Positions 36,259 to 63,461 of a DNA stretch of 64,000 nucleotides are shown piece after piece. The position numbers and the translations under genes are program-made. Position 1 is the first letter of the stretch, and each line of letters starts with the position of its first letter. Under the pieces are notes generated by a model. That model saw only the letters and a program-made list of their open reading frames with translations. It was not told where the DNA came from and did no database searches. The DNA is from Inonotus obliquus (Eukaryota; Basidiomycota; Agaricomycetes; Hymenochaetales; Hymenochaetaceae), in NCBI GenBank assembly GCA_032164295.1, contig JAJHTX010000007.1:2268501-2332500 (forward strand). The letters are read 5' to 3'.

Positions 36259-36469
36259 TCTTAAGATAATGACTACCTAGTACATAACAATAGAATGAGA
36301 ACAATAACAACGAAGGACAATAAGAAGGAACCACATGTGATCACAACAGACAATAGAACATGTATTATTAGATTCAAACGGAGCTCAAATCATACTGTAC
36401 TTTAGTATATAAGAACGGCCTCTGGCTGTTAGAAAGATAGTATTATCCATCATTAATAAGCCAATAACT

Positions 36470-37255
36470 ATGAGCGTCCTACGTTGGATACAAGAGCGAC
36501 TAGCGGCAGTAATACAAGTACTAGAACAGCCCATCGTTCCCCCGACACCGCGAAGCAATATATTACGATGTTGCAACACGTGCTGCCCAGCTAAAGAACT
36601 AGCTGGAGGACTAATGCGAGAATTAATCAGAGAGATCACGTACGGAGACATAATAAACGGACAAGCCGACATAATGATACGACGTCGATTTGTAGAACTA
36701 AACTACGACCCTAACCAACAAATGCAAAAGGCTTACGAAAGGGAAATACGAGTATTGTCCTACGACGCCGGACACTTTATAATGATGATCGGAATACGAA
36801 ACGTAGCACAGGAAGGAAGACACGAACGATGCGATGCAGCTATAGTAGATGTCGACATTGCCTACAAGCGAGACCAAGCCGGAACGAACGAGAGAACTGC
36901 ATATGCTTGGGGGCATTGGATAATGAATTACATAAGCTGAGGATTACCATATGGGTATACCATAATGGAAATAAAGGTAGAACAGTACGGCGGAGTAATA
37001 CACCTACAAGGAGTACAAGGAATAACCCTACAACGCGCAAGGACAACGCCAGGATATACACGAGTACAAACTATTCGAAACTGGCTAACTATACCACGAC
37101 CGATCCTACCAATACAAACAGGAACCGAAATACAAGCAAGGGAAAGACAAGAACAGATGACTCAGCAATTACCTAGAATAGCTGAATTGGATCAAGTGCC
37201 GTTACCAACACAGGAATCAAACCTGTCTACGAGATGGTACCGCCCACTACACTAA
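36470..37255 (+). pseudogene. LTR-encoded CxxC-H-C protein, element 1 (one in-frame TGA)
   Basis: Frame of 262 codons including one TGA at 36938-36940, which probably arose from CGA (Arg). It starts 43 bp inside the LTR end. The N-terminal helix MSVLRWIQERLAAVIQVLEQ is followed by CCNTCC (Cys35/Cys38), an amphipathic helix (ELAGGLMRELIREITYGDII), GHFIMMIGI (His102) and ERCDAAIVDVDI (Cys121). Then come AYAWGHWIMN and a beta-rich tail (YTIMEIKVEQYGGVIHL). The same C-x2-C, H and C spacing appears in the two related LTR proteins in this window. No known family recognised. Confidence 0.65.
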
Positions 37256-37403
37256 ACTAATCGAGGAGAGGCTAGTAACACAGAGGTAGTGAAATGAGGA
37301 AGGAAGTAAAGAGAAAGCACGGACCAGGTATCATAGGAGGAAGAAACAGATAAATACTATAAACAGTAAGTAACAAGGTAGTAACGTCACACATGTAAAT
37401 TAG

Positions 37404-37411
37404 TATATAAG
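37404..37411 (+). promoter_or_regulatory. TATA box of solo-LTR-like element 1
   Basis: TATATAAG about 150 bp after the ORF end, marking the probable U3/R junction region. Confidence 0.6.
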
Positions 37412-37996
37412 GAGGCCATTGTAGAGCCGACCTAGCAGTTTAATCCAAGTCAAGGGACCCTACCATAAGTCCCTAAGTTAAATCGTAACATCAATTACTT
37501 GCGAGCCAGTAAATTACTAGTAGCGACACGGCTAAACTAAACCGATTGTGTGAAATCGAAGTAAAGCTAAATACGGATTGCAACTAGATTGTTCTCCCTA
37601 TTGTCTGCACGGTACGAGCTACTCACAACGTAGTGCGATTCCCGATATTCCCTTATCGTGAATAACAATCAGTATAACAATCGCGTCTGCACGCCGACTT
37701 AATACTGTACGATTATAATATCAGGTTCAACTGCAATATCAGTTAGTTGCTAGTTGTTTCAGATCGGATCAGCTACACAGTCCACTAAGGTGATTAGCAA
37801 TTCCATAACCAGTATTGTAGAATTTGGATTAACCCCTCAAACCGAGGAATTAGCCAGATTGGTCCGTCGATCAAGAATCAACGAACCCTCCACGGAGATA
37901 AACACTGGCAGGCATAAAATATAACGATTTTGCGAACGTTCTACGCCTCCTGTCTGAGTTCATCTCATTCTCTCTGAGGATTCACTGTGTCTAAAA

Positions 37997-39017
37997 CGAT
38001 CGTAGGTCAAGTGGGGGTGTAGTAGATGGTCGCGGTAAGGGTGAAGTGCCCGAACAAATCCGGACTGGGATCCCTTCGACAATGAGGTTATGCTCGACTA
38101 GACTGCAGAAGACCTGATGAGTAGCACTCATGAATGAGCGTACGAGGAAACCATTACTCTTGGCCATATAATTTGCGGGACCGGAAGGCTTGTACGCGAG
38201 TCTAAAGGCGTGAAAGGTTGGGTTCCCGTGAGATGCTTGGATGTCGCCATCAGATCAGACACAGGATGGATGTTTGCAAAGAGACGCCTGAGATCAAAGT
38301 CGCTAGCAGATGCGAAGAGATGGAAGTGGGACGCCTATGAGAGCCCGAAGAGCCATAAGAATGTGTTGGTATGCGCAGGGTCACGCCGCGATGCACGACC
38401 GCCCGTTGGATAGGCATCGTTGGTTGTACTCAGCACTCTCCCATGGAATTCCGCCGATGAGAAGATAACTTTGGAGACTTGTGCTATAAACCCTTGTCTT
38501 CTCTTTCTTCTTCACCGTTGTCCGCACTCGCCGCCCATTCTTGTCGAAAGGTGTGGAGCTTCAACAGGCGCTCTCCGTCTCTTTCGAGCAGCGAGTTTCC
38601 ATGAAGACGACTTACTTCAAACGTCGTCCACAACAGCGCACTTGATTCTGTCAAGTTCCCTGCTTCGTGCTTTTCAGGAGCCGTCGTCGGTATCTTGGGT
38701 CTGCAGAACTGGCATGTTATTGCTTTCCTGCTCTTTTTGCTGTGTACTGATGTCCCCCTCTCCTCACTTCATGGACTTGGTCATAGAAAGGATGACCAAG
38801 ATTTTAGATTTACATAATAAGTCTTAATCTCGTGATAATTTATTACCATAAACAGATGACTTAAAGCCATTCCCATTGAGCTCCATTTAGTTTGCAATTC
38901 CAGTCCAAAGGCCTTTACCATGATCTCACCACCACAGTCAAGCTATCTACTAATTTCGACACGACCCCGGCCGTGCTCTGATCTTTTATCGTCACCATCA
39001 TCGACGACACTGTAACA
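37997..39017. other. Right flank of copia and upstream region of the hydrolase gene
   Basis: Starts with the second CGATC target copy. About 1 kb without a gene I can support. A 135-codon plus-strand frame (38420-38827) has no recognisable features. The last about 200 bp should hold the hydrolase promoter. Confidence 0.5.
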
Positions 39018-40545
39018 ATGTCGACCTGGGATAGCTTGAAGGATGTTGCCATTGGCGATAGGTCGAAGGACATACTTGTCCGTGAAACTAGGGGAACTGT
39101 TGGTACCGATGACAATACTGGTCCTGTAGATCTCGAGCTTGACCTCGATATGCCGAATCATCGTCCGAAATTGGAACAGCTACGCGTATTAGCTTGTGCG
39201 TTTTCGGCTGTCATTTCCTCTACCAACCGACTCTGACTGCTTTTTAATACCACGCTCAATCGGACATTGAACGAACGTACGAATACCTATCTTCATCTTA
39301 CCGAACAAAGTAGGCACTGTTCTTAGGCTTCTTGTTGATATCGCCAGTCTTCCGTTTCTTCTTTCGTATGACAAGTACAGATTCAAGAAGACTATCGATA
39401 CCGGTCGGACGGGTAAATGCTGTTTATGCATCTACGTTCCAAAGACGGTGACAGATAGGAGCAAACCTCGAGGGGTGGTTATGCATCTCAACGGTGGTGG
39501 ATGGACAATGTACGCCTCTCGATTTTCATAGTATACACAATACGCATACGAGTCATGATCCCCGAGTAGAAGTCGACCGGAGACCGAAGCTCCTCTATGT
39601 CGATACATAGCGGACACCGTAAATGTTGTCGTTGTCGCTCCAGACTACCGAAAAGCTCCAAGTACGTTCGTGTTCTCACACTTCGCTCCAATGCCTAATC
39701 TTATCGACATATAATCGCAATGCTATGTAGAGTATCCATACCCACACGCGTTGGAGCAGGCTTTTCAAGTTGCTTCTTGGATAGCTAAGTACGTACTTTA
39801 TACATCTCATTTTTTTCTTCTATTCTTGAGCTGTCCCATATCCTAATGTTCCAGCGGCAACCTTACCAAAGCCCTACAAGCGTCCAAAACTCCAAATGCG
39901 TCCCTCATCTCCACTTGTATCGACTCAACACGCATAGGTTTATCTGGAGGCAGCGCAGGCTCCAACCTCGCTTGTGCACTCTCCACCCTCTGTGTTTCGC
40001 GTCCTTTACCCAACAGCGCAAAGATCTGTGAACAGAGTCTCCTTTACCCAGCATTGGACTTGGCAGTACCGTATGAAGAGAAATTGGCTAGAGTGGATCC
40101 GGAGAGGGTGTTACCGCAGTGGATGAGTCGGTTCTTCTTGGTTCGTTCGTTCGCAATGATCTCATGTCGGATGAACTGACACTAATCTCGTCGCATCGCC
40201 AATGGCCAATGGTCAATGCCCATACAGCGCGCGTATCTTCCTCCACCTCGTACACCCACCCACCCTCTAATCTCCCCAGCACTCTCCCCCAACTCAATCG
40301 CTTCCAACCTCCCACCCACCCTAATCCTCACAGCCGCACACGACTACCTCGCACACGAAGCCGATCACTTCGCTTCACGGCTCTCCGAATTAGGTGTAAA
40401 GGTTAGACATAGGAGATTTGAGGATGTTGGACATGGGTTTGATGGGATACCGACGTGGGATAGGAAGCAGAGGGTGTTGAATTGGAAGGCTAGGGATGAG
40501 GCGTGGGGGTTGATCGCTGAGGTTTTGGAGGAGATGTTGTTTTGA
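39018..40545 (+). CDS. Alpha/beta hydrolase of the hormone-sensitive-lipase family
   Basis: Probable esterase or deacetylase. The spliced protein contains HLNGGGW (oxyanion-hole HGGG-type motif), PLCRYIADTVNVVVVAPDYRKAP, YPYPHALEQAFQVASWIA, GLSGGSAGSNLACAL (nucleophile Ser in GGSAG), LLYPALDLAVPYEEK, ILTAAHDYLAHEADHFASRL (acid Asp) and FEDVGHGFDGIP (His). All catalytic positions are therefore present. At least five introns; the one after GGGWT skips about 60 nt (ending GAGTAG) to reach SRPETEAPLCRY. Substrate cannot be told. Ends EEMLF at 40545. Confidence 0.88.
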
Positions 40546-40988
40546 GTTTTGTAGTTGGTGGAATTGGAGGATTACTTGTCTGACACTCTTTTTCATGGCT
40601 TTGTTGCGTGCTACATTCTGCCTTTAAAAGAAGCGCGGAGCGGTGTTTTATTTTTCGGAGTGCTGGATATCCTTGATACACGACTTCACTCTGCCGAAGC
40701 GCAGTGCTTCCTTTTCATGTCTATTATGTCGGTAAAACCATCACCCTGTCCCCACAACATCCGAAATCCTTTCTCACTATCATAAACGGATTGACTTCTA
40801 TAGGCATCCAGCTAGCCGTGATTGATCTATGTAGGTGGCCCAGTCCAATCACCTTCAATGATTGAAGATTGAGAAAAAACGAACAAGAAACTATATTTTT
40901 ACACCGCACTACTATAGCATACACGACATTGATTTTTCATTCTTTCCTGGCCCTCTCGCCAACAAGATGAAACAACCACCACCTCCGT
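40546..40988. other. Convergent 3' intergenic region (hydrolase / SDR)
   Basis: 443 bp between converging stops; no ORF supported. Confidence 0.5.
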
Positions 40989-42318
40989 CTAAATGTTCGC
41001 CAAATTCTCACGCATGTACTCCTCGAAAAGAGGTTTGTACTGCGGATGCCAGCGACTCAGAGCCGGGCGTCCCTCTGTAACATCTCCCGCGGCCCACAGC
41101 ACTCTGAGAGCATCAACAGCAGGACGCGTCTCGTTATCGGGACAAATGATGTAAAAGTCCCCTGCGCGGACTTTATCTAGCATGTACAAAACCGTCTCTT
41201 CCGGTGTCCACGCTCCTGCAGGCTTCTCCTTCACCAAGGCCGCGCCGCCGATGTTGGTGAACGTCCATCCGGGGACGAAAAGATGGGCAGTAAGCTTGAC
41301 ATTTGGGATCTCGCGTAATTCGTAGGCGAGTTGTTCGGTAAGCGCTTTCACTGCGGCTTTAGAAGCGTTGTATGCCGAGTTCCCAGGAGGATTCGTTATC
41401 CCTTGTTTGGAGCCTGTGTTAATAATAACGGAGCTAATAAAAGAGCGGAGTGAAAGTATGAGCTTTTGAATAATACGAGTTTGGTGTGTGGAGTGGATAT
41501 GATGAGGCGAAAAGGACGCACGGGTTTTCCTGCGCTAACATTGCCTAAAGTAACGGCCCTTTCTTAGTAAGGATGGCTTATGGCTGGGAAGATGTTTGAT
41601 GCTCACCGGAACGAATGCCTGTTGAACGTTTACGATACTAATAGCACCGAAGAGATATCCAAATCAGTTCAAGGCCTCGGATTAGGTGAAACGGCATACG
41701 AACCCGTGGAGGTTGACATCAAAGATTTTCTTCCAGTTATCAAGCCCGTCCCAAGACGTACCCCGAAGTCCAATGCCGGCGTTATTAAGAAGCACAGCAA
41801 CCTGTGGTAGAGACGGAGTGGATGTGTCAGACACAATCATTGCCGTCCGTCTGCCCACACCGTCCCAGCTCCGAGAGAGAGACGGGACGGACGGCACTTT
41901 ATCTGTCTGGTTCTCACTCGGAGAGAAGGAAGGCTAGGCTAGGCAGAGGCTCCGAAGCCGCGCCCGTGCCTGTGCTCACCTCTCCCCATGTATCGAGCAC
42001 TTTATCTTTCAACCTTACGACGTCTTCGTTATGGCTCACGTCCGTAGGTACGACGAGCACGTTCCCTTCGCCTACAATCGCTGCAACTTCCTTACCCGCT
42101 TCCTTGAGTTGTTCTTCGTTGACGTCGGCGAGTGCAATGCGTAAACCCTGTCTGCCAAATCCACGTTATGTGAAGAGTAGTTGAATCCCCCCAGATTGAG
42201 CAACTCACTTTGCCAATTCGATAGCAGCAGCACGCCCAATGCCGGAAGCTGCGCCGGTGACGACCGCAACGCGTCCAGCGCAGAAGACTGGATGAAGCGT
42301 CCTGTCAATTGGACTCAT
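40989..42318 (-). CDS. Short-chain dehydrogenase/reductase
   Basis: NAD(P)-dependent oxidoreductase with a Rossmann fold. Start MSPIDRTLHPVF at 42318 leads to RVAVVTGAASGIGRAAAIELA (TGxxxGIG cofactor loop). Next are RIALADVNEEQLKEAGKEVA (the Asp after beta-2 suggests an NAD preference), NVLVVPTDVSHNEDV, VAVLLNNAGIGLRG (NNAG) and the active-site NSAYNASKAAVKALTEQLAYEL (YxxxK). The C-terminal part (VPGWTFTNIGG, FYIICPDNETRPAVD) closes at 40989. Four or so introns. An upstream in-frame Met at 42387 is possible. The substrate is unknown. Confidence 0.88.
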
Positions 42319-42418
42319 AGCTTCCTGCTTATAAGGTGTTACAGGGGGCCTAAGGGGGGATATGCCTCGTCCATCCATGAATACCATTCCGTTAAATTGC
42401 AGAGAGTGAGAGAAGGAA

Positions 42419-42460
<42 letters not shown>

Positions 42461-43100
42461 GTAGCAGTTGTGAAGAAAGAAGGGTATATATATGCGGGTT
42501 CGTTGAGTGCGAGTGCGATTGCTACAAATGACGCAGATCACGTGAATTGAAACTACAGAACATACCCTTTTTTTCCTCGACTTTTTTCTACTAAAATCGG
42601 GAATAATTTACCAAAATATACAGCGCCCTCGTCAGAGAAAGAGTTTGAGGGTCCTTCTTCATGTCATAATACATCACGTGAAGCACATCACTCTCTTCAC
42701 GTGATTCGGAGAAATCGGCCGATCGTAAAGTTTGAGAAAAAGAATATAATAATATAGACGTGGTATCAATGTATGTACGCCCACAAGCATCCTACAAATG
42801 CATACAAATATAAAGCAGGCCAAATGCCTTGCTCTTGCCTTGGGTGTAGAGGTTCCGAGTCAAGTGTGATTAAGATATGTCAGAGAGCACAGTACTGGGT
42901 CGTCCGAGTTGGAGGAGACAAAGAAAGGAGAAAGAAAGAAACAAATAATTAAAGAACATTCAGCTGGGAGACATTCCGTTCGTACCATAGCTAGTCCTGC
43001 GATTCTTCATTGCGTATAGAGTCGCAGGTCCACAGAAAAACCAAAGATCCGTATCCAGATCGTTTATTCAAATAAATTCCCTAGGTCTCTTCTTCATGCC
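42319..43100. other. SDR 5' region and VTS1 3' region
   Basis: About 780 bp. Contains a (GA)18 tract and A/T-rich sequence. It also holds a CACGTGA-containing stretch near 42676-42703 with two close ATCACGTGA / TTCACGTGA boxes (E-box-like) that could be bHLH or bZIP sites. No gene. Confidence 0.5.
42422..42458. repeat. (GA)n microsatellite
   Basis: About eighteen uninterrupted GA units in the SDR 5' flank. Confidence 0.95.
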
Positions 43101-45302
43101 TCATTCTTCCGCGGCGTGCTCTTTTGCATCAGCATCACCGCCTGCACCTGGATCGTTCGGCATCTCAATACCCATCTTGCTCCTCACTCCCGCGAAGGTC
43201 TTCATCATCTTCCTCCTCGCTCCAAGAGCGGCGACGCCCTTCGCCTCTAGAGCCGCCTCGTCCATGACTACCATGTCGCGCCACGCCATGCCCTCAAAGT
43301 TCGGTGTGTACTTGTGCAGTCTCAGGCTCCTCAACCACGCAGGAACATCGTTCAGCAGCGCAGGGTCGACGTCATCCTCCTTATCCTTTCCATCGCGTCC
43401 ATTGTTGCTACGGGTGCCACTGCCGACTGTGCTACCACCCATGCGCGACGATCCACGGGTATTGTTGCGTCCGTTCATGTTGTTGAGAAGTGCAGCCTGA
43501 GCGCCAAAGCCTAGTCCTGGTTGCATGAACCCACCGGCCGCCATCTGAGCCTGAAGCAGGGCCTGCATCTGAACGTCCTGCATGCCCATATTCAGACCCA
43601 TCATGTTCATGTTCATGTTCAGTTGCTGCATCTGCATCGGGGACAACTGGCCCATCTGCGCGGCAGCCATCAATTGCTGCATCGTCGCCATATTGCCCAA
43701 ACCTCCCATGTTGGGAAGTCCAGGGGACGGGATCCCGAGGCCGAAAGCATTGTTCATGCTCATCGCCGCCATTCCACCGTCATCGCTGCCTCCGAATCGA
43801 TTGGAGGAAACATTCGAAAGTGCCGGGCTTCGCAACGAAGAGTTGCCAGCCCATCCTTGACGCCCACTGCGGTGCGGGCCAGAATTAATAACATTCCCGT
43901 CGTCACCATAGATAGCATGGCCCGCGTTGTTCGCAGAGGGTCCGTTCTGCATGGCGTTCGCGCCATTTTCGTGTCCAGTGCCCTTTGAGGGACGCCTGAA
44001 TTTTTTCGCATCATCCAAACTGAAACGACCCCCGGAGTTGCCGACTTGCCACGACGCTAGTTTTACTGCTGCGGCGTCCAGATTCTGGCCGTTGCTGTTC
44101 TGCTTTTCCACGTTGAACATCAAATCATGCGGGGTATTCACCATGCTCGCCCAGTTACCGCCCACCATGGGAGAAAGCTGTGCCTCGAGACTATCGCCCT
44201 CAGCAGTTTCCCTGTTCAGCCGCGGGGATCGCAGAAGACCGCTAAAGTCTGTACTTTTCGGGCGTGCGCTATTCACTGTTGTTGAAGTTGGTGCCGGAAT
44301 TGTAATCTCCTGGGCTCCATCATCTGCCATGCGCTCTGCGACTTGGCCGAGGGAATTCGCTCCAGAACCACCCCAAACGTTGCCGCCTGCAGCACCAGCG
44401 AGAGCTGGAGCCGAGATACGATGTGCAGCGTTCGCCTTGAGCTTCGCACGTTGTTGAGCTAAAGTTGCAGCGGCATCATTATTGCCGGAGTTTGCCGCAG
44501 AGTCGGGAGACAGGAAGGAGCTGGAGCTGGGCTCGACTGCCAAGGACTGACGATTTGCCGACAAATTACCACTGAAGTTACGAGCAGATGGCGAAGACGG
44601 CATGTTTGGTTTCAGTCCAGGTGACTTCAAACCCATTTGCGCGAGTTTCGCCTCCATTTGGCTCTGCATCGAACCTCCCGCGTTAGGACTGAGGAGAGCA
44701 GTCATAGGATCCGCCCTAGCCATCTGCTGCAAGACGGTAATGAAGAAGCGGATTTGCACCTGCGTCGAGTGTTGCAGAAGACTGTATAAAGCAGCTGTAC
44801 GCTCAGCCTCGGAGAGAACACGGAACCCTAGGAATTGGATCAGAAACTAGTCAGTAATATCAACGAGCCACATACATTGTTCGATTGCACTGAGTTCCTC
44901 TTTGAAGTTCACATCGAGTGAGGCAGCCGCCATATCTTCCTGAAGGAACGTGAGATACAACATGGAGCAACAGGTTCCGAAATTACATACCAGAGTCGCT
45001 TCGTAGTTCTGCAAGTTTTCAAACCATTGGTCGATAGCCTCGGCTTTACAATCTTCACTAAGTCTATTTCTAATTTAGGAGGGTAAAAATGACAAACCTT
45101 CAGGAGTCTGGAACATGCCCGAGTTACCGAGCAGCTCGCTGGTGGGACGACCTGTACCAGGACGAGGCGACGCTGGTGGATTGAGATTTATTGGAGTGGG
45201 ACGATTCGACGAAGGGCCCATCGATGCTCTTGCATTAGCCTTGGCAGCACCGTTTGGAGCTGGGGAAGGACTGGGGCTGGTCGATGGTGGTCGGAGAGAC
45301 AT
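43101..45302 (-). CDS. VTS1: Vts1/Smaug-type SAM-domain RNA-binding protein
   Basis: Post-transcriptional regulator that binds stem-loop RNA through its SAM domain and promotes mRNA decay. The N-terminus is Pro/Ser-rich (MSLRPPSTSPSPSPAP). The conserved fungal Vts1 region spans three introns: DCKAEAIDQWFENLQNYEATL / EDMAAASLDVNFKEELSAIEQ / WFRVLSEAERTAALYSLLQH...QVQIRFFITVLQQMARADP. A long Asn/Met/Gln-rich middle follows (MSPMQMQQLNMNMNMMGLNM). The C-terminal SAM domain reads DVPAWLRSLRLHKYTPNFEGMAWRDMVVMDEAALEAKGVAALGARRKM. Stop at 43101. Domain order and composition match the family. Confidence 0.92.
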
Positions 45303-46396
45303 TATACGCGTTCCAGTGAAATTCGTCTCAGATGTTAATAAAGAAAGAGAGAAGCGATCTGGCGCGAAGAGAAGAAGTGTTTCTAGGCTGTGCTGAGTAT
45401 ATAGGCTATGACCGACGTCGAGTCGGCGTTGGCTACTTTGCAGAAAGGATGTGAGTGATGATGCCTGCCGCTAAGATTGCGGGCTCCTACGTCGTCTGCT
45501 CGACGAAAGACGTAGGACGAAGCTGGTGCCTAGACAAGACCAGCGGGCCTGCCGGACTAGTGAAAGACAAAGACGAATAGAGGGTGGCCGCAAAGGAGGA
45601 GAAGGACGAGGAGAATGAGGAGGACGGACGGGAAACGAGAAAGAGATGGAAGATGGATTGTCAGTCACAAGGGCTGGCAGCCTCATTTCGCCTATGAGAA
45701 AAACCTGCCTGTTTAGGATAACCGCCACCGAACCTGGATATTTTGATGCTCACCAGTTATCCATCATGATTTCTCTTCCTATTCTTGCTCTACATCCCAT
45801 CTTTCCTCCCAGTTGGCGGTGATCGCCCTCAGGAACATCATTCAACTCTGAAACATAAACATCAACTTATTTTTCAAAGTATGTCTTTCTCTTTTCAAAG
45901 TGCTCTTGTTTTTCGATCCAAGATAGCAAAGGATTGAATTCTCAGCGCATGCGACGGAAAGGTCGCGCCGGTCTTTCAATGGTGCTGCGCATGTCTGCAA
46001 TGAGTAGCATTGGATTCTATCTTCACGAGTCCTGGTTTCGTGGCATCTTTCATCACGGAGCGACACCTGTTCCCCGTTGGACTTATTTCCGGCAGCATAA
46101 TCACCGCCAGGAATGGTTTCCCTCAAGGCCATATGCACATGTCTACCACAACTATTGCTCCAGAGGATGGCTGGCCTACTAAACAATCAAATACTGTCTA
46201 GCCATGTCACTGTCGTCATGGTTGTAGCACTCTTATCAAGCTTTCTACTTAGGAAAAGGTTTTGCGACAAACAGAGATTTTATTGAACACGATGTGGTCG
46301 GACTATCAGCATAATGGACGGAGGTAAATGGAGAAAGCATGTTTTCATGTTATGAGATTCTACTAGGCATATACACGCGCACCGTCTACGCAAGAA
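45303..46396. other. VTS1 promoter region and gene-free spacer
   Basis: About 1.1 kb. The first 200-300 bp should be the VTS1 5' UTR and promoter. The remaining reading frames on both strands (longest 114 codons) show no recognisable features. Confidence 0.5.
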
Positions 46397-47872: not shown

Positions 47873-48196
47873 AACCTTGACGAGGAGAGCTCTGCACGCT
47901 TGTTATCTTGCAAAATGCGAGATGCAAGGAACGCAGTTGACAGACATTGCGTTTCGTACACAACCATTCTGTCCTTTGCACCCCTGTAGCGTGCGCAGTA
48001 TTTATATTGCGTAATGTCGGACTCAGTTCGGAGTGTTGCATTTGGTAAGGTCACCTTACACCGTAATTCAGGTGAGGCTTTCAGCGAGAGATTCAAGATG
48101 GCATGGTTTGAGGATTGTATTGTTAGTACACAACAGCACGGTTGAATTCTAGTAACAGAACGAATAATGTTTTACCAAGACACGAAGACGCTATCA
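47873..48196. other. Spacer between the F-box-like gene start and the calpain A stop
   Basis: 324 bp, the F-box-like gene promoter and the calpain A 3' UTR. No ORF supported. Confidence 0.45.
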
Positions 48197-52004: not shown

Positions 52005-55000
52005 TCAGGGTGCGTTCTTCTTCCATCGCAGCAGCTGTCCATGCCGCAGTTGACCGGAGATTGAGACAGGCACCTCCTTTGTGTACACGCGCAAACCCAA
52101 GAGAACTGTATCAGCTTCATCTTCGATCATCTGTGTAACGCGCGGCGGGCATCATATTAGCCGAGGTCAGAATCAAGACGATGTGCCACATACCCTCGTC
52201 TCAACACTCTTGAAGAAGTCATCTGGATGCTCAACCGCTACCATGCTGTGTTCATGGTCCGCAATACTATGACATTTGTCGCAGAGGTTGTAGTCCACGC
52301 AGGTCAAGCAATACCATCTTGGCCCAACAATTTCAGATGCCTGTAGACAAACTTGTGAGTGATTAAAGACTAGGTGCCAATACTCTCACATTGCAACCAT
52401 TACAAGTCACGTAGTGGACGGGAAGAGGTGGCTTAGGCGCTGACTCCTTGATGGGAGATTTTACGATAGTTCCTAGTTTCGTCTCGATGGGTGACTCTGG
52501 CGGAGTCCCATACTTCGTCTGCTTGATTTGATCTGTCTTATGATCCTGCTTCTCGCCCAAGGAATCCGAAGGCTTTACATCTACAACTTCTGCTTTAGCG
52601 TTCTCTTCTTTGGAACCATCCTCGCCGTTGGTATTTTCGTTATGTTCGCGACCCTTGTCGTCGCCGGATTTATTAGCAGGAGCAGGAGAGTCTGCGGTTT
52701 CTATATGAAGAGACGCCATGGTTGCAGTGACAGAAATATATTCTTTCTCCGTGCTGGACGGAGGAATGTCGCCGGCCTCACTTGAAGCTGAACTGTGAGA
52801 AGATGACGATGCGGAAGATGTACACGAGCAAGCGCTGGTCGCAGGATCAGGGACCGAGCCGAATTTCGCTTGAAGTGTTTTCCTGCGCTCAGCCTGTTGG
52901 CGGATGTCCTCCAGTTGTACTTCATGGAGGTCACGCCCCGCAAGAACTTCAATCGGAACCTCCAAATGATTCCTCCACTGCCTGGAATACGGGAAGCGCG
53001 CGCTTAATCGTTGATAGTGAGGCTAAGATACTAGAACTTACTCTTCATCAAAGTTGGCGGCTATCGACTTGCTTCGAGCGTATTCAGTCCAAACTCTGGA
53101 AGCCTTTTGCTCGTCGTACGAAGCCACTTTGTCGGCATAGTTCGATTTCTACGGTCTTCACTTCAGCATCAGTGTTACTAGTGCCAAGTACATACGCACC
53201 TTGTCCTTATCAGTAATCCTATTGAGGCGAACATGGACAATGTAGTCTCCTTCATCGAGGCTGATATGTAGTTTGCTGCTCCTGGCGAACACTCGCATAT
53301 ACTCAGAGTTAGCTACTTCGTCTTCTTCCCCCTTCTTGAAAAGTTTAAAGTCGAATGTCCAGATCGATGATCCGGCGAGAGGCGCGTAGAAGCGTTTATC
53401 AGACTGCGAGAGTACGAGGATCGCTTCGGAGGGCTTGGGAAGAGAAAACGTGACTAGAAACATACGAAGTTCGATAAACCATTAACAGACGGGCGAAGAG
53501 TATGACGTACACGAAACATCTCCGAACTGCCATGCACTGGGGAGAGATCGACTCTCTACTAATAACCAATGGCTGCTTACGACCCATGACGGATCAAATA
53601 GCTGGGTTCGTTCGACATAGGTCCAAGTGTCCAAGAAGTCACTGTACTCCATGATGAATACCCCGTCATCGCCGAATTGGTGCTCTAGAGCTTGCAAGGC
53701 TTCTAGCCACTCCGTTGTCCATTCTTTAGATCCATCTGACCAGCGGCCTGTCCATTCTGAGGAACCCCATGGGTTGCGAATCTTGAGGAAACGCTTCCCG
53801 CGGAACTCCACAGCTTTGATAACAGTATAGGCATGTCCTACATTGCAAACTGTTAGAAAAGGCAGTACTGAGTGTAAGAATTGCACCTCACTTGTAAAAA
53901 GGCCTTTGGGAAGTCAGAAAATTAAAGCAAGGGTCTTATGTAAATTTGGTCGGAGACAGACCTTTTGCTACTTCAATGCTCATGCCTCTGGGCTCGGCGA
54001 GGGAACAGCTGAATAGGAGGTCCTCGTTCGCTCTAGAAAGGTCGTTCTTCCAGAATTCATCTGGATCCATTATGTCCTGAACGAAGATATCGGTGAGTCT
54101 CAAATAACAGGGATACGTTCCTGGACACGAACATTAATGTAGATGCAATTAGAAACGCCTCTGTAATAGATGAATCGGTTAGAAGTGGAATGTGATACTA
54201 CGTATGAAGCATGCCAACCCAGTTAGATCCTCAATCCCTTCGTGGGTGAAGCCTCCTTCGGTCGCAGAATAGTCTCCGTGCAGTTTCGCGTATGCTTTCT
54301 CCATAAGAGGGCTATGGAAATTATTAACTCTGAGTATTCACCATTATGAGCAAGCCTACACCCATGTCTCGTTCTCTTGAGATGAACGAGAGAAGTATAG
54401 AGTCTTCCCTCCCTTTCGTGCAATCCGATCGTACAAGTCACTGTCATCGTGGTAAACTTGCTTTGTCTAAAGGGACAATTAGCATGCGAGTAGGCTAGAG
54501 AACGATGAGCAGGGCAAACTTCGGAGCTGAGGCATTCCCATTTTGGGACTTTGGTGAATAGTTGGCTACATTCGCAGTAGAAAGACAAAGTCAGTACGAA
54601 AGAATCAGAAAGTTGCAGAAAGACGTACTCGTCAATGATAACGTCAACCCACTCACCGTCCCGACAAAATACAAACCCGTAGACTCCAACTACGGGGTCA
54701 TACTGACGATTTGTTTGTTCAGGTGATAGAGAACCATGTAGAAAGAAAAGCATTACCTCGACGAAGAGCTTTTCAATTAGCGATGGCTTTGTAGCAATAG
54801 CAGCCATAGCACTCAGGAGCCAGCAATCCCCGAGCCCACCTATACCGCATCACCAATCAGCAATACATCCTTTCTCCGGGAGCATAGGCACGAACCCTGG
54901 CATATATCTGAAGACGATGGTCCTGAAAAGTGGATGATACATATGAAACGAAGGAAGGGAGGTACGAGTTACTTACCATCAATGAACAGGCTGGGATTCT

Positions 55001-55445
55001 CAAATATTTGATTTACGCGAAGGACGTCGGCCGGGTCGAATCGATCAGTATCCCTATAATAATTCCCGGAAATTAATATGGAATAAATATCTGCATGACG
55101 GTTGCTTACGGGTCAGGACTGTGTAGAAGATAATATTCCCTGCCACCAAAATCGAATTCGATATCTCTGATGTAGGTAGAGTGAGTATGGGATGGGATAG
55201 TCGAGTGTGGGAAATTCACACCTGAACTTCCGATTCCTTCGGCGACAGTCTCGCGCAATTTTTTGGACCTTGTTTCTGCAACGCTCGGTCGCTTTCTCCA
55301 GTTCTTTATTCACGAAGAGGCCAGCACGATGCTCCTGTTGCTCGAAGACGGACCTTTTCTTTGATACCCTTCGCGCCTGTGCGTCATCTTTCCAGGAAGT
55401 TGCGCGAACGAGCCTTGACGCGATGGAGTTCAGGACGGTGTTCAT
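52005..55445 (-). CDS. Calpain-type protease with ZZ zinc finger, copy B
   Basis: Same architecture as copy A. Start [15 protein letters not shown] at 55445. The core has [27 protein letters not shown] (Cys), [38 protein letters not shown] (His) and [19 protein letters not shown] (intact Asn, codon 53773-53775), so the C-H-N triad is complete. Domain III ([15 protein letters not shown]) and an acidic Ser-rich linker follow. The ZZ finger reads CNGCNVR / [23 protein letters not shown]...HEHSM, ending [16 protein letters not shown]. Introns fall at matching places to copy A. The cellular role is unknown; calpain-ZZ fusions are a fungal arrangement as far as I know. Confidence 0.88.
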
Positions 55446-56069
55446 GGGGATACTCAGATGGCGGTTACGACGAAAGACGAGTTGTCTGCACTTCTAGTCT
55501 CTTAATAAATGGGTAGATCATCCTCCGCTGATGGAACTTAAGTCCTGAGCGCTCATGTAAGTTCGGCGCCTCGCCCATGTTACGAAGACAAATATAGATA
55601 AAACCATCAATCAAGACCAAGGCAACGCTGGTATACGTTTGATCCGCGGTGAGTTACCCATAAACGTCCATAAATCAGTACAACAGTTTTCAGGCTCGAC
55701 GAAAACGAGATGAAGAAATTAGCAATCCAAGCATCAAAAATGAAATAAGAAGGATGGAACGATGAAACGCTGCTGGTACCCGCGAAAACACACTGGCTCG
55801 ACTCGTTGAGGATATTTGGATTTCCAGCACGGACATGACACGGAGCACCGCCGGTTGTGAAACTATTGATGGTGCACTGAACACTAAGTATCTTCATCTT
55901 GCATGGAAACCTTGCCGTGGGGTGCAAACAAAAAAGGAAGAAAACTTGCATTTTTAGCACGATCCATGGACTCTACAGTATAGATTTTCCGCCTCTATCG
56001 CACGCAGCATTTTCTAGCGATCTAAATGTTGCGGCCAAGAATTGCGCAGTTGTAGAATCAGAACGGTGT
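55446..56069. other. Calpain B promoter and ATP17 3' region
   Basis: About 620 bp. The ORFs here are short and without features. Confidence 0.45.
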
Positions 56070-56715
56070 TTAGTGGGCATGGTTCTTGTGATGTTCTGGT
56101 AAAGACAACAAACTCGGGTCAGAGACGATAAGTTCCACTAGACAAGACGGACAAACGTACTTAGATGCACTGTGTCGGGCAAAAACAGCAAAGAGCAACG
56201 AGGGCAATCAGCAACAAGGGGAGAGAAAGAGTTGGATAGATACGGACTGTTGTAGTCGATTGTATAACCAAGCCCAAAGATCGCAAGGATGGTGAATACG
56301 AGTGGCTTTCCAGAAGCTTTTGCACCCTCGAAATAGCGCGCGCGAAGACCTGATGGTCGTGGTGCAGGACCCTTGGGAAGCTTGGAGTAGAAATCTACTA
56401 GGGGTCCAAGTCCTTCGGTCGAACCGGGGCCGCCCGACTGAACGATCACACGCGATTAACACGAATGCAATGTAAGTCAAAGGAACGCATCCAACGTTCG
56501 GAAGTGATTTCGTCCGTCGATGAATGTGCCATGATAGCGGTAGGGACACATTACCAGTGACGGTTGACGAAATGCCAACATGCGAGACGACGGAGACGAA
56601 CAATTCAGAAAAATAAAACATTCACGGTAGCAAAGAAGCTTACCAGGAGCTTTGGAGTTGCGATCTTTGGTGGGACCAAGTTTCCGAGCGCGCGACGCAC
56701 AAGTGAGGGATGCAT
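56070..56715 (-). CDS. ATP17: Mitochondrial F1Fo-ATP synthase subunit f
   Basis: Small single-pass subunit of the membrane Fo part. Four exons: MHPSLVRRALGNLVPPKIATPKLL / SGGPGSTEGLGPLVDFYSKLPKGPAPRPSGLRARYFEGAKASGKPLVFTILAIFGLGYTIDYN / MHLK / HHKNHAH. The FYSKLPKGPAP block, the transmembrane helix (LVFTILAIFGLGYTIDY) and the basic HLKHHKNH tail define the family. The last exon is only about 23 nt. The first intron is about 200 nt, long for this locus. The start codon is only 145 bp from the ORF1 start of the neighbouring retroelement. Confidence 0.9.
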
Positions 56716-59101
56716 CGTGAGCTGTAGACACGAAGAAGGATAGCGAGGACGTTGGTGACGATGAGCTGGGATGAGATGATATTACGTCAGGATATCTGTC
56801 ACAAGCTCATCACGTGTTCCAGTATGTCACAGAGATGCACACCTTTCTCTTTTACCGCCATGAGTGATAAGGGAGAAACACGTAGTTTGCGATCAGTGAC
56901 CTGTGGAGGGGTACAGCGTTTACAGGCAGCACTCCAGGGCAAACAGGCCTCTGCTGTGCCGTCGAAACCCGCCATCGGGCGGGCCAGTGGGTCTGGAAGG
57001 GCGTCGTCGTATATTTCTGACGTCAACCCAGAATCTGTCGCGTCGTCCGGTTGGGACGTCCCATCTGACCAGCGGGTGGACACCCCAGTCGCAGAGGCCG
57101 TTAGTAAGGTGCTGGGTAAACGCCCAGCAGGTTCAGACGTGGAATCGGTGAAGAAGAAGACTTGGGATGAGCAGATGGAGGTGGAGAGTGTTTTTGACGC
57201 CCAGGCTGCCTACGCCCGCACGTACGACTTTGTGGGAGACACGTTGTCTAGGGTCCAGTCGGAGTTGAAAGACCCAGAGCTAGTCGACCCGGCTGACTCA
57301 TTCGGATTGCAGCCCGGCTCGCTGGAACACAATTATGTACAGTTAGGCTTCTCGATGGGGAAAGTCACGGCTATGATGTTTTCGGCGCTTACTCAAACCC
57401 AAGAGGATGGACCATTTGCGACGGGCGATTGTATGGATCTGTACATGTCGGCTTTCCAACAGGGTTACAGGAAGGAGGCCCTGCACCCAGGAGCGTTCGA
57501 AGATGGTCTACGTCATCTGGCGTCCGACTGTGCAATCATGCCGGAGGTTTATCCGGCACAGGGCAAGGATGTGGACCCCCACCTCTACACCATTCTCGAT
57601 CGCCTCAACCAGATAGGCTCGGAGCAGATGGCGGCAGGTCGTCGCACAGAAGAGACGGCGAATGCAGCGAAGAAACAGTTGACCGTTAAAGAGAACTACG
57701 TGCAGCTGAGCTCGGTATCAAGCTCGGTATCAAGCCCGGTATCCCATTCTATGCTTACCCCATGCTACGGTACAGTCCCATCTACACCTTCCAGTATCCA
57801 CCAGCACACCTAGAGAAACCGTCGGTCCTATTTCTCAAGATACCGAATGCCGAGAGTACCGGTACCGAGCGCCAAGAAACCCGGTACCGAGAATACCGAG
57901 AGTACCGAGTGCCAAGAAACCCGGTATCGAGACAATTTGACAATTCGACATGCTCTCATGACATGGATCAGACGTCTTCCTCTCTGGTATTCATTCCTGA
58001 TGGTTGGACTATGCATGCCAGTTCTTTGGGGAAGCTCAGGGTCAGTATCTGTTAAGGTTTTCAGGTCCGGTACCACCAGAAACGTGTCGGTATCAATCAG
58101 CAGGGGTGCAGATCTCTTGTCCTAAGGACTTTTCATCCAGGGGTACTATATGCTACGTTTTCATTGGTATCTTGTCCTCCCTAACCCTTTCTTGTTGTCC
58201 CCCTGATGGCGCTGCAATGTTCACTTTTCTTGTTACATTTTTCTTCAGACTTTTCTTTGTTTTGATCTTCCTTTCTACTTTCTCCTTTTGGATTTATGAG
58301 CTAACTACAGTACAGTAGTATAAATATCTCCTCCTGTATGTAGTAGCTCTCCAGGTAATCTTAGGAGCTAGCCTCTAATGTGAGGGCTCGGGTTTCCTCA
58401 CCCCCTTCCCAGTTCCATCTCAGTCTCATCTCAAGCTTCGTCCCAGTCCCATCCCAGTTCCGTCTCAAGTGAACCTTCAGAGTTAGCCTCCCGTGTGAGG
58501 GCTCAGGTTTGCTTCCCAGTCCAGTCAACACCTTCATCCACCAGTCTCTCCCATTCAGTTTCTCGCTATACCACCCCGTGCTAGCTGTTTCCTTGCAGTA
58601 CCGACCTGTACCGACGTTTTTCCCACGGTACCGACGTTTTGTTATCCTTCATATTCTGCACGTCATCCTTTTGTTTCTGTACTGATCTTCTTGTTTGACA
58701 ACTGTTAGAAAACGCTCGCCCTAAAGGGACTATGCAGTAACCACAATAGGACGGTCCGCAGTGTTACGGGTTCGGCGATGCTTTTCTAAGAGTTTCCGGA
58801 GCCTACTCGGCTTTCACAAGCAGGGCAGATTCCCAAGTATACTAAGCGTTGCCTCAGACGCTCTCGTTTACTAATCAAGTCAGGCCTCAACCTCGTTGAC
58901 AGGCTTGTAGGACAGGTAACAGTAACTCCTGCCGTTCGCAAGCTTCTCTAGTCGGTGGGCGACTAATCAATCGTTCCACGCCGTAGAGTAAGAGAGGTTA
59001 AGCAGATTAGGTGGTCTTCAGATTAGAAGCTAGATGCCTAAGAGGACTCAATGTACAAGACGATCGAAAGAAAGATGGGGAGCTACGGTCTAAGTCTACA
59101 A

Positions 59102-59110
59102 CTATTTATA
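59102..59110 (-). promoter_or_regulatory. TATA box of solo-LTR-like element 2
   Basis: TATAAATAG on the minus strand, about 330 bp past the ORF stop. Confidence 0.6.
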
Positions 59111-59440
59111 CCTTTTCCTCATGTTGTGGACGGACCACTTCCTATGCTCCGTAGTTCCTACCCTCGATCTGATTCGTTGTTCTAGCTTCCAATCTCGTCT
59201 GGTATTCCTATTGTTCTGCTGCGGATTGACTCATCGACTGCGCCCTGTGCAAGGCGATGACTCGGCGTTGACTCATCTTGACTTGAACTGAATTGAAACC
59301 TATGCTCGGGGTCGGCCTTGTGCTGCGCCCTGTGCATAGAGTGAGTCAGTGAGTGAGTCATTGAATGCGTGTTCGTATGCCATTGGTTTTGCATGGCTGC
59401 GCCGTAGTTAAAGTTCGCTCGTCCGCAGTTGCTCGTGCAT

Positions 59441-60217
59441 TTAAGGAATTCCGTCGGGGTTCCGTTGTATAGCATCTGGGGCTATGAAGGCTGTGATTTG
59501 CTTGTCGCCTCGGGACTCTTGTTCGGGGCCGTCAAGTGTGATTCGACATCGGATATCATCGTGGGGAAACCAAGGTGGTTTAACGTAGGTGCCTATGGTG
59601 ATGAGTAGCCGTACACTTCGTCGAGTATCGTTCGAAGGTATTCTCCAGCCTAGGTATAGGTCTCCTTGTAGTCGAATAGCTTTGCAGTGTGCCCATAGTT
59701 CCCTGAGTGTGTTTGCAACCCATGCCACTGTTATCGGTGAGCGGCGGTTCGTAACATAGTCTGCACTGATCTCCACGAATGTGCTTGGGCACTCGAGTGC
59801 TAGTATGTCGTGGATTCCTACTATTGTCCAGTGTGTCTTTGGTTGCATGCCTATTGCCGTATCCATTGCTATTGTTGACCTCGTGTGATTTCGAACGACC
59901 TCCGGGGGATTGTGGTATTCTCGATAAGCTGTTGCTCGTTCGCTGGACACATGATACGTCAACATGCCCGTTGCCTCCCGTAGTATTATCTTGTGTAGGT
60001 CTTCGATGATCTGTCGCACTCTTCTGCATTTATAGCAAACCGTTGGAGGTTGCTGTACTTGCTGCATCGTTTGCGAAGGTTTAGTGTGATCGTCGGGATT
60101 AGCGTTGCTAGCCGATGCTTCTTGATCGTCGGCTTCGGATTGTATTAGATTCGCGTGTTCTCCGCTTCTCGCTGTCGATCCTGATCGTCTCCGGCTAGTG
60201 AAATTAACCAGTCCCAT
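59441..60217 (-). CDS. LTR-encoded CxxC-H-C protein, element 2
   Basis: Intact 258-codon ORF starting 58 bp inside the LTR end. Residues 1-60 are disordered (MGLVNFTSRRRSGSTARSG...). Then CYKCRR (Cys61/Cys64) and the helix QIIEDLHKIILREATGML, followed by THWTIVGIHDIL (His129) and ECPSTFVEISADY (Cys143). VAWVANTLRELWAHC and a beta-rich tail (GWRIPSNDTRRSVRLLITIGTYV) close it. No membrane segment or known domain recognised. The C-x2-C, H and C order and the spacing of 64-67 residues from second Cys to His match the proteins of elements 1 and 3. Confidence 0.65.
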   Translation of the reverse strand: MGLVNFTSRRRSGSTARSGEHANLIQSEADDQEASASNANPDDHTKPSQTMQQVQQPPTVCYKCRRVRQIIEDLHKIILREATGMLTYHVSSERATAYREYHNPPEVVRNHTRSTIAMDTAIGMQPKTHWTIVGIHDILALECPSTFVEISADYVTNRRSPITVAWVANTLRELWAHCKAIRLQGDLYLGWRIPSNDTRRSVRLLITIGTYVKPPWFPHDDIRCRITLDGPEQESRGDKQITAFIAPDAIQRNPDGIP

Positions 60218-61090
60218 CCGGGGTAGTTTCGATCGGCATTCCTAATCGAATCAAAATTTCAGCACAATCCTTTCAACAACATACCTTCACGTACCGACCC
60301 CTTTCTTTCTGTACCGACCTGTACCGAGGTTTTTCCCACAGTATTAGACTCTTGTTTTGCTATGTTCTCTCTCATACCGACCTGTACCGAAGTTTTTCCC
60401 ACGTTCTAAACTGTCCTTTTCATACCAGAATTACATACTCTTCGCTTCTGGCCCATCCATTCACTCCCCCATTTCATAGACAACAAGTACTGTGAGTGTA
60501 CTGGTTAAGTACCGGCACGTATTAGCCCTCCCCCACTTAAAACCATACACCCCTCGTCTCGGTACCTCCGGTACCAGACGCGATCTCGCACATTTATCGT
60601 GTTGGAGGAGAGGTTGAAGAAGGTAGAACAGGGACGTTTGCCGAGTCCTGCCCACCAGACGGCCCAAGGGCTCCAGGCGTCTAGGTGGGCACAACCCCCC
60701 GCTGAGCAGGGAGCTGCCCCGGGTGGTGGAATGCATAAAGCTCCCCAGGATGTGACCCCTAGTCGACGACCGGGTGTGCAGGTAGCGGCCCCCGGTGCGC
60801 AGGTCACGCATAACACTACCCCCCAACAGGTTGTCCCACCCAAGCCGATCAATAAAGGCAAGGGCAGGCAGACCCCACGAGGCGAGGCGGTCGAGATCAT
60901 TGATGTAGACGCGATCAACTTGTCTAACAAAGCCAAAGGCATCCCGGACCGGTACGTTCGTTACGTCTCAGCTCCGGCCCCACAGGCTTTCGTTCAAGTC
61001 ACAAAGAAGAATGCTGTCAGAAGAAATTGACTTATTTGGCATGCAGATCCAGAGACGCTACAACCCGATAAATTCCCACAATCATCAGGC

Positions 61091-61900
61091 ATGGAAAGAC
61101 AATTCAATCGAACATATTATACACGCACATGCTATTGTCCCTGGGGCTCGACATTACCAGGACAAATCAATACACCAATATGCAGGTTCTGTGAATGGGC
61201 ACATGAGGAAGCATGGATACTGCAGACATGGATACTCGAGGACGCAGTCAACTATATGCTTCGACATGAACCTTACTTAATTCGAACCAACCACCATTGG
61301 TCAACGGTTGCAGAAACAACTCAACCATTGTTCACACCTACACTAAATGCATACTTGCACGAAGTTACGGTTTGGTCAGGAAGGAGGTTACACTACATTG
61401 CGAATGCAGGTGTAATAGCATGGACAAGAAGATCGATACATTCCCAGCTATGCCGACGAGTGGCAATACAACTTGACTGGCCAATACATGCGGAAGCTAC
61501 AAGAGAACATCAAGCACTACGCAATAATCTATTTGGCAACATAGTGGCACGATGGAAATCGGAGCAGAATCAACTACTGGGGATGATAGCATTGGAAATC
61601 TCTCAACCGAGGGAACGGGTCAACGGGGCGATCTTAACCTTCGTCATGGAAGGAATCAATGGCGATCAGGTGCAAGGAACGGAGATACGGATACCCGACA
61701 GATATCGCCGAGCGACGATCTGGCAGACTGGGTTACCTGCCATAGTACAGGCAGAACCATATAGGCCCGCCGCTCCGGTGATTGATAATCAAGCTAATCC
61801 TATTGAGGGAGGAAGCCCGAGTCAACCGAGACAGCCGAATAGCCCAGCAGCACCTGCAGAAGATGAAGACATGGCAGACTGTTCGAGTTGCTGTGCATGA
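61091..61900 (+). CDS. LTR-encoded CxxC-H-C protein, element 3
   Basis: Intact 269-codon ORF starting 76 bp inside the LTR end. MERQFNRTYYTRTCYCPWG leads to CRFCEW (Cys31/Cys34), the helix AHEEAWILQTWILEDAVNYML, LHYIANAGVIAWT (His101), LCRRVAIQLDWP (Cys121) and LFGNIVARW. A beta-rich segment (GMIALEISQPRERVNGAILT, FVMEGINGDQVQG) follows, then a Pro-rich acidic tail ending CSSCCA. The additional CYC near residue 14 and the terminal CSSCC are specific to this copy. Function unknown. Confidence 0.65.
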   Translation: MERQFNRTYYTRTCYCPWGSTLPGQINTPICRFCEWAHEEAWILQTWILEDAVNYMLRHEPYLIRTNHHWSTVAETTQPLFTPTLNAYLHEVTVWSGRRLHYIANAGVIAWTRRSIHSQLCRRVAIQLDWPIHAEATREHQALRNNLFGNIVARWKSEQNQLLGMIALEISQPRERVNGAILTFVMEGINGDQVQGTEIRIPDRYRRATIWQTGLPAIVQAEPYRPAAPVIDNQANPIEGGSPSQPRQPNSPAAPAEDEDMADCSSCCA

Positions 61901-62175
61901 CATCATAAGGAACATTCAAGAAGGACTGACGTAGCAGTGCGGAAGGCACGGAGCTCTGCACAGCCACAGGATTGGCCGGTGATGGCGTGCTTGCCGTACA
62001 CTGACCAGGTATGAAGTCATATCGAAGGATCTTGAAGATTGCAGGAGGAAATCGGAAGTGCACCGCCACCCGATTGGAGATTGTGGGGTATCGGACAAGA
62101 TAGGGGCTATGCTCGGAAAGATCAGGAGGCTGTGCCCGAGGGAGCCTGGGTAACTCAATAGATAGAAGCTTTGGG

Positions 62176-62183
62176 TATAAATA
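62176..62183 (+). promoter_or_regulatory. TATA box of solo-LTR-like element 3
   Basis: TATAAATA about 275 bp after the ORF end, followed by GGCC. Confidence 0.6.
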
Positions 62184-63461
62184 GGCCAAGCGAGGATGGC
62201 TATGTCCCTCAGCAAAATTCTTCTGTACTAGTGAATACAAAGAAGCCCCACCAAGCTTCTCTTCTTCGCTACCACTCTTATCCTCGGTACTAGTGTCCGG
62301 CCGGTCCCTTGACCCCGACTAAGTACTGTTGCTACCCTGCTCTACAAAGCACCGTCTCGCACTTCCCATCGCTTATCAAGACGGATTGCGAATATTGCCG
62401 GAGTGAGTGGACTTGTTCTGGTGCGTCGATCGTGTTGATCAGTCGATCAATGTCGGTCTGCTGATCCGATCCGCACTGGTCCTAACAAACGCTTCCTCTC
62501 ACTCATATGCTCAGGCGGCGAAGGCTCCTGCGGGCAAGAAAGCACCCCAAAAGAAGAAGCCCATCACCATTAATCAGGCTCGCCAGAACAAGGCAAAGGT
62601 CACGACTATGCTAGGTTTCTCCATCAAACCACGCCCGACACTTTCGAGGGAGGAGATGTACATCGTGGCGAGGTCAGCCAAACCTACGCCAAATAAAGGC
62701 GGGGCTATTGTGCTCCGCAAAGGGCAATGGAATATGAAGGGCGACTTCGTCATAGAGGTGGACGTGCGTCCTGACGCCGCGGAATACGGGCCGGTGTGGG
62801 CGGAGGAGTTGCAGAAAAAACTGAGGATTACATCAGACACGATGACATCAGTGGAGTTTGTCCCATTCGTGGAAAACTTCCAGTTCATTGTCCCGGGGTT
62901 CCCAATTATAAACCCCTCGACCCGAAAGATGCACACTCCGCTGGAGATAGCGGAGGAACTCCGGCTATCTAACCCAGTCTTCATCGAGTTTCCTTTTACA
63001 GAGGCTCCGCGATTTTCGGGCAAAGACGAGGTTCTCCGAAGCCTGGTTACGAAGAACCCTAAGGCAACGGCGTCGGTGATAGTTGCAGTGTCCCACCCGC
63101 TCAAAGCTAGGGAGGCAATTTTCCATAATAATGGAATTGTCAAGCGCGCGATCCGGTACTACGGACATTACCAGTACGCAGTGGAACAGAGGGTGCGATC
63201 GGGCCCCATGCAATGTCGTAAGTGTTGGTGCTTCCGCCACAGTGATCAGGACTGCATTGAGTCGTACCGGTGTGCGCGTTGTGCGGAACCGCATCAAATG
63301 GAGTTGTGCAAGAAGAAGTGCGAAACGTGCTCCGACGCGAACGTGTGTAAACACGTCATCAAATGTGCGAACTGTCAAGGCCCACACAGGGCGGATGCCC
63401 AGCACTGCCCAAGACGCCCTCCGAGTAACGCGCCGCGTTCAGGTTCTCCGCCCGCATACTA

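Follow-up and report, generated by a model that had tools for sequence, protein, structure and literature searches.

A protein-coding gene under purifying selection within the long terminal repeats of retrotransposon families in Inonotus obliquus

Three solo long terminal repeats (LTRs), each enclosing a long open reading frame (ORF), lie in a 64,000-nucleotide stretch of the Inonotus obliquus genome (C7:2268501-2332500 of the 36-Mb genome; hereafter, the window). E1, a solo LTR of family 1 (Ty3/Gypsy chromovirus), occupies 36427..37904 on the plus strand (1478 bp); E2, of family 2, occupies 58703..60275 on the minus strand (1573 bp); and E3, of family 3, occupies 61015..62487 on the plus strand (1473 bp). 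The coordinates, TG..CA ends and lengths of 1473-1573 bp proposed in the first-pass annotation, which was made from the sequence alone, were recovered for all three elements, as were the 5-bp target-site duplications (TSDs) of E1 (CTGGC/CTGGC) and E2 (ACAAC/ACAAC), but the E3 pair (AATGC/AACGC) carries one mismatch. An exact TSD was found in 25 of the 34 LTR copies tested. The insertion site of E1 is proven, because E1 is nested in a Ty1/copia element, within its 3' LTR, and the intact left LTR of that element gives the empty site; after removal of E1 and one TSD copy, the copia LTR pair aligned over 255 bp, with a single mismatch. The frame into which E3 inserted stays open once the insertion site is rejoined.

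The three ORFs are O1 in E1 (36470..37255, plus strand, 261 codons), O2 in E2 (59441..60217, minus strand, 258 codons) and O3 in E3 (61091..61900, plus strand, 269 codons), and they start 43, 58 and 76 bp, respectively, from the start of the LTR. These start distances agree with the earlier description of 258-269-codon ORFs beginning 43-76 bp in, and O2 and O3 are intact, but O1 is broken by an in-frame TGA at 36938-36940, owing to which the product of the window copy is 156 aa. The expected TATA box was found 3' of the ORF in every LTR, at 37404..37410 (plus strand, LTR position 978) in E1, 59104..59110 (minus strand, LTR position 1166) in E2 and 62176..62182 (plus strand, LTR position 1162) in E3; extra TATA-like hexamers occur at LTR position 932 of E1 and at 242 of E2, the latter within the ORF. 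As for the surroundings, the Ty1/copia element that holds E1 (window 29798-38002) is recent, with LTRs 99.6% identical over 255 bp and with RVT_2 and integrase domains, and repeats with 12-bp and 29-bp spacing lie within it at 34741-35097. E2 is flanked by a repeated TACCGACCTGTACCGA...TTTTTCCCAC motif in three 63-nt copies (58568-60406). The frame split by E3 (60540-63462) ends in a cysteine/histidine-rich segment and was read as similar to ORF1 of a long interspersed nuclear element; its downstream part matched nothing in Pfam at E up to 0.001.

Chance ORFs were rejected, since none of 1000 mononucleotide shuffles per LTR gave a 250-codon ORF on the plus strand; ORFs of 150 codons arose in 1, 6 and 4 shuffles of E1, E2 and E3. 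Further ORF-bearing copies, as anticipated in the first-pass annotation, are plentiful: the genome holds 125 matches to the O1 protein, at least 147 to O2 and 92 to O3, fragments included, and at least 41 matches to E1 DNA. Among the O1 matches are sister subfamilies, 44-48% identical, whose ORF is open. Distinct copies covering at least 90% of the ORF were screened strictly for stops and frame changes, and 25 of 36 (family 1), 11 of 14 (family 2) and 11 of 20 (family 3) were intact; one of the three family-2 copies rejected, L011, is nevertheless open over 258 codons. Among stop-making changes, CGA>TGA accounted for 8 of 13, 3 of 3 and 6 of 10 in families 1, 2 and 3. The ORF in all three LTRs is a real gene.

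Selection was measured by pairwise Nei-Gojobori ratios of nonsynonymous to synonymous substitution rates (dN/dS), and variants were compared with a random-expectation ratio of nonsynonymous to synonymous changes (N/S) of ~2.6. The median dN/dS was 0.16, 0.27 and 0.33 in families 1, 2 and 3; it was ~0.16 between the family-1 subfamilies, where dS was ~0.5, and the six most divergent pairs gave 0.20-0.36 in family 2 and 0.19-0.23 in family 3. Variants present in two or more copies, which reflect active lineages, had an N/S of 61/109, 7/17 and 46/46 in families 1, 2 and 3, compared with 72/35, 34/17 and 54/37 for singletons (p 4e-7 for the contrast in family 1 and 0.003 in family 2); L041 was left out of the variant counts because it is heavily decayed. 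The N/S was depressed in only two of the six frames, that of the ORF and the antisense frame with the same wobble position, and 104 of the 170 shared variants in family 1 were third-position changes. In an indel tally against the window copy, which covers deletions, all 10 deletion types in family 2 and all 6 in family 3 fell outside the ORF; in family 1, the main deletion is 15 bp, in-frame and within the ORF, and one copy carries a shifting indel. In one pair of family-1 elements, dN/dS was 0.20 for the LTR ORF, 0.35 for gag, 0.11 for protease, 0.15 for pol and 0.16 for a pre-gag ORF. The dN/dS values and the frame-specific N/S reject an absence of coding constraint and show that the protein is under purifying selection in all three families. 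The selection that had been suspected from conserved spacing is confirmed by dN/dS values well below 1 and specific to the frame.

Full-length parents of families 1 and 2 were found in the genome. Family-1 parents (e.g., L027/L028) are ~11.3 kb long, with paired LTRs and the TSD CAGAG, and family-2 parents (e.g., L025/L026) are ~13.9 kb long, with paired LTRs and the TSD CTCAT; polypurine tracts, GGAGGGGGGCGAG and AGAAGGGGGAG, lie directly 5' of the 3' LTR in family-1 and family-2 parents. Pfam identified Ty3 capsid, CCHC knuckle, reverse transcriptase (RT), RNase H, integrase and chromodomain in these parents. With paired LTRs, TSDs and the order RT-RNase H-integrase-chromodomain, families 1 and 2 are chromodomain Ty3/Gypsy chromoviruses. 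The genome's best 103 and 104 RT matches were scored for the family-1 and family-2 queries; 18 were listed at ≥80% identity for family 1, of which the 16 covering ≥297 residues were used (two partial C4 matches were excluded), and the 17 listed at ≥98% were used for family 2. Among these matches, the RT was bracketed by two same-strand copies of the ORF in 16 of 16 cases in family 1 and 17 of 17 in family 2, including one degraded family-1 case with partial flanking matches (C13) and one with 24-kb spacing. Projected on the window copy, 4 of 9 same-strand LTR pairs were identical (L025/L026, L031/L032, L033/L034 and L045/L046), indicating that some insertions are recent.

The family-3 copies in L029 and L030 are solo LTRs, each with its own TSD. 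A likely family-3 parent, degraded, lies at C12:681-700 kb, where GGGGAG adjoins the 3' LTR and an RT that matches family 1 at 57% identity (C12:684431-685642) sits between two ORF copies in an 18.3-kb span, although a nested element could own the RT in that span. The possibility that the elements are not LTRs was thus rejected for families 1 and 2 by their paired full-length parents; for family 3, a likely parent was located. At C12:390421-415968, three family-2 ORF copies at 12,387-bp spacing have two RTs between them, probably two elements with a common middle LTR. Near the start of contig C9 (L035 3792-7336 and L036), family-3-like and family-1-like LTRs with the ORF lie close together; both recur within ~10 kb, the family-3-like one inverted. 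The parents also contain extra ORFs before gag or after pol (L025 2527-3318 and 3716-4786, minus; L026 3516-4418, minus; L027 2473-4083, plus; L028 1747-2256, plus). By eye, some of them have coiled-coil-like, hydrophobic N-terminal or acidic stretches. These extra internal ORFs of family-1 and family-2 elements matched no Pfam family above cut-off, and dN/dS between two elements was 0.16, 0.25 and 0.07 for the three compared.

The primer of Tf1 self-primed reverse transcription is the 5' end of the element RNA. In families 1 and 2, the primer-binding site (PBS) begins exactly 2 nt after the 5' LTR and complements the LTR over 11 nt in family 1 (37437..37447, plus strand, the likely transcript start and boundary between the unique 3' region, U3, and R) and 16 nt in family 2 (59061..59076, minus strand), 33-36 nt past the first base of the TATA motif. 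When the PBS of each of four full elements (two from either family) was shuffled 1000 times, the observed complementarity was reached in 2, 0, 0 and 0 trials. Families 1 and 2 therefore appear to be Tf1-like self-priming elements, as judged from the PBS and the presumed transcript 5' end. Across a 68-bp block holding the TATA box and self-priming stretch, E1 shares 87% identity with a distant relative (L035:6802-6869). The implied start is at LTR position 1011 in E1 and 1200 in E2, and the ORF ends at 829 and 835; because this start falls ~180 bp (E1) and ~365 bp (E2) past the ORF, U3 contains the entire ORF in families 1 and 2. The self-priming complementarity, by marking where the transcript starts, places the ORF in U3 more firmly than was possible in the first-pass annotation, whose claim that the ORF lies upstream of the 5'-LTR start site is borne out for these two families. 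The organisation is like that of nef and sag, with a protein-coding ORF within U3.

We then considered the encoded protein. A Cx2C motif recurs in the window proteins, where 78, 82 or 86 residues separate it from a third Cys, and all three families have a His shortly before that Cys (1-6 residues between), its exact place varying. The conserved core runs from Cx2C through an approximate 'YERE-RVLSYD' and two paired strands to a Cys with 'DIDI-Y'-like sequence after it. The shared pattern described earlier stands for Cx2C and the third Cys but not for 'His + aromatic + I/T': this candidate ligand is Tyr in L065 and L050 and is shifted by one in L071/L072. Outside this genome, family 1 has eight relatives (E 2e-76 to 6e-38), which measure 93-269 aa and include several fragments; O2 and O3 had none in a large protein search. 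Pfam at E up to 10 returned no family for the O1 fragment, O2 or O3; P0001, P0002 and O3b also matched none, and L071 had a single sub-threshold match (Dark_CARD, E 0.054). No DNA-binding fold was recognised for the protein. The AlphaFold model of P0001, an O1 relative, had a mean predicted local distance difference test score (pLDDT) of 60 and a predicted template modelling score (pTM) of 0.58, and that of O3 had a pLDDT of 51 and a pTM of 0.48. Both models are of low confidence and have a common core of helix, four strands, helix and two strands, a comparison that is not independent because the O3 alignment included O1-family rows.

Taken together, we consider it reasonably probable that the three ORFs are accessory genes in the U3 of Ty3/Gypsy chromovirus LTRs, with a zinc-binding, trans-acting product that would be expressed from the 3' LTR on a subgenomic RNA. 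From retroelement biology, the copy that is transcribed and inherited would be that of the 3' LTR, since the 3' end of the RNA serves as template for the U3 of progeny elements, and it is on this copy that selection must act. The duplicates in 5' and solo LTRs would stay silent except where transcription enters from a neighbouring promoter. In families 1 and 2, pol is followed by a TATA-like motif (TATATAAAG, directly 3' of pol, in family 1; CATAAATAG, before the last internal ORF, in family 2), which in each precedes a gene with an N-terminal hydrophobic segment; in our reading, a 49-nt intron would join the family-1 post-pol exons. Because of these motifs, a foamy-virus-like internal promoter is our first guess, from which the U3 ORF could be reached by splicing or downstream initiation. 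At the weakest step, the product would be a small zinc-binding alpha/beta protein with Cx2C and H-x(1-6)-C. It may work in trans against a rapidly changing target, either of the host or in a promoter, and would most likely counter element silencing or control the LTR. Between family 1 and its sister at C6:2446618-2457304, U3-ORF identity is ~44% and RT identity is 82%; this much faster divergence of the U3 ORF fits a host-facing role and makes it a candidate for element-host conflict. We infer that the 3' LTR copy most likely yields an accessory protein that evolves fast, binds zinc and faces the host, although the host-facing function itself is a tentative hypothesis that we consider rather less probable than its opposite.

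Several observations weigh against this proposal. Only the cysteines of the suggested zinc-binding site are conserved, the His being variable, and the fast divergence of the U3 ORF could also come from relaxed constraint or recombination. The shared-versus-singleton contrast of family 3, taken alone, was not significant (p 0.24), and in one family-2 pair, dN/dS was 0.50 for the U3 ORF (5 changes) compared with 0.06 for gag and 0.07 for pol, where a shorter pol alignment gave 0.42. No clear promoter or splice site was seen right before the U3 ORF (by eye; no scan was run), a pattern search found no self-priming PBS in family 3, and 5 of the 9 LTR pairs differ.

Among other explanations, the protein could be a cis-preferring structural or replication helper, such as a particle or RNA-packaging factor. 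The gag/pol-like constraint on the U3 ORF in the family-1 pair compared would be expected of a helper, and the flanking of every family-1 and family-2 RT checked by U3-ORF copies fits an essential part of the life cycle. However, helper parts of retroelements usually reside in gag-pol, other Gypsy RT groups (≤46% identity, among the matches listed) are abundant in the same genome, and the protein diverges far more than RT between sister families. We regard a helper as somewhat unlikely, and retain a trans-acting accessory protein as the preferred reading.

An unlikely alternative is that the protein regulates its own element, either as a repressor or copy-number controller of its LTR or as a superinfection-exclusion factor, with solo LTRs expressing it via neighbouring promoters. 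Solo LTRs can indeed retain the ORF, as in the intact E2 and E3, and 115 of 147 family-2 matches lacked a stop (counted by eye among the best matches listed). Against this, the singleton N/S values of 2.1, 2.0 and 1.5 are nearer to the expectation than those of shared variants, so that selection on single copies is not indicated, and the protein lacks a recognised DNA-binding fold.

The common ancestry of O1, O2 and O3 is likely rather than shown. Pairwise BLASTP among them was not significant, and hhalign across families gave E of 0.0017-0.019 with a probability of 2-15%. Some cross-family profile scores were rarely equalled in 4000 shuffles (family 1 with O3b, 2; family 1 with O2, 7; family 2 with O3b, 10; family 3 with O1c, 26; family 3 with O2, 27), and others were weak (family 1 with O3, 143; family 2 with O1c, 331; family 2 with O3, 456; family 3 with O1, 564; family 2 with O1, 1391). 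The non-significant BLASTP, the low hhalign probabilities, the scores matched by many shuffles and the lack of relatives of O2 and O3 would suit an independent uptake of unrelated ORFs by the three families, with the Cx2C likeness due to convergence. This is nonetheless improbable: beyond the rare scores, the cross-family alignments register at Cx2C, extending over 158 columns for O1-O3, and LTR position, length and core secondary-structure order agree. The three families are also mutually closest by RT among the matches listed; from family 1, family 3 follows at 57%, family 2 at 52% and the next group at 46%, and from family 2, the other two families are at 53% and 47% and the next at 46%, a small last gap. 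The single protein family across three LTRs that the first reading had proposed is likely, with Cx2C and a third Cys recurring in all three, but homology judged by sequence is only marginal.

U3 is regulatory in LTR elements, but the idea that its openness reflects constraint on enhancer or silencer DNA without a protein can be virtually dismissed, being already contradicted by the codon-position pattern (the third-position excess among shared family-1 variants and the frame-specific N/S), the in-frame 15-bp deletion and the conservation of the protein, both among sister subfamilies (44% identity) and in relatives outside the genome.

LTRs are routinely assumed to be non-coding: insertions are dated by using them as neutral clocks, and they are masked ahead of gene prediction. 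For these elements, a selected U3 gene breaks the neutral-clock and masking assumptions, and it adds to fungal retrotransposons a layer of accessory genes, a hallmark of complex retroviruses. In a broader proposal, to which we give a little less than an even chance, fungal chromoviruses evolved their own U3-encoded, rapidly evolving and hitherto unrecognised zinc-binding superfamily, anti-silencing or self-regulating and independent of nef, sag and bet, in several lineages and in other species. No ORF inside a fungal retrotransposon LTR was recognised in the portions of the open-access literature that were searched, which is weak evidence of novelty.

Several known systems resemble parts of this arrangement. 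In the published sections consulted, crapaud of Podospora anserina is likewise a fungal chromodomain Gypsy element with a divergent U3, unusually variable upstream of the TATA box (PMC10787394); its divergent U3 is, however, <200 bp, and the ORFs described there are gag and pol only (PMC10787394). Retrosat2 of rice, also a large element whose LTRs are long, has an additional, fast-evolving ORF0 of unknown function, but as described this ORF0 lies upstream of the gag-pol ORF, outside the LTR (PMC3485330). Tf1-type fungal chromoviruses share a chromodomain-bearing gag-pol and a PBS that can pair with the presumed 5' end of the transcript, whereas the families here have ~1.5-kb LTRs with a conserved U3 gene and extra pre-gag and post-pol ORFs. 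Foamy viruses carry accessory ORFs between the envelope gene and the LTR, with an internal promoter before the 3' genes. Published work covers the bel ORFs (tas/bet) with their internal promoter (PMC7828637), and the point of likeness is the TATA-like motif that families 1 and 2 have after pol, although the fungal ORF is completely inside U3 and has no sequence match to bel. A further parallel in layout concerns LTR-encoded retroviral genes. Lentiviral nef, as in HIV, lies partly, and sag of mouse mammary tumour virus (MMTV) wholly, in the LTR. Pfam searches of the U3-ORF proteins found no match to the Nef or MMTV superantigen families and hence no detectable homology. As in these viruses, the fungal accessory protein is encoded in U3 and its gene is duplicated in the 5' LTR, with transcription probably confined to the 3' LTR copy; unlike them, the host element is a chromodomain Ty3/Gypsy retrotransposon.

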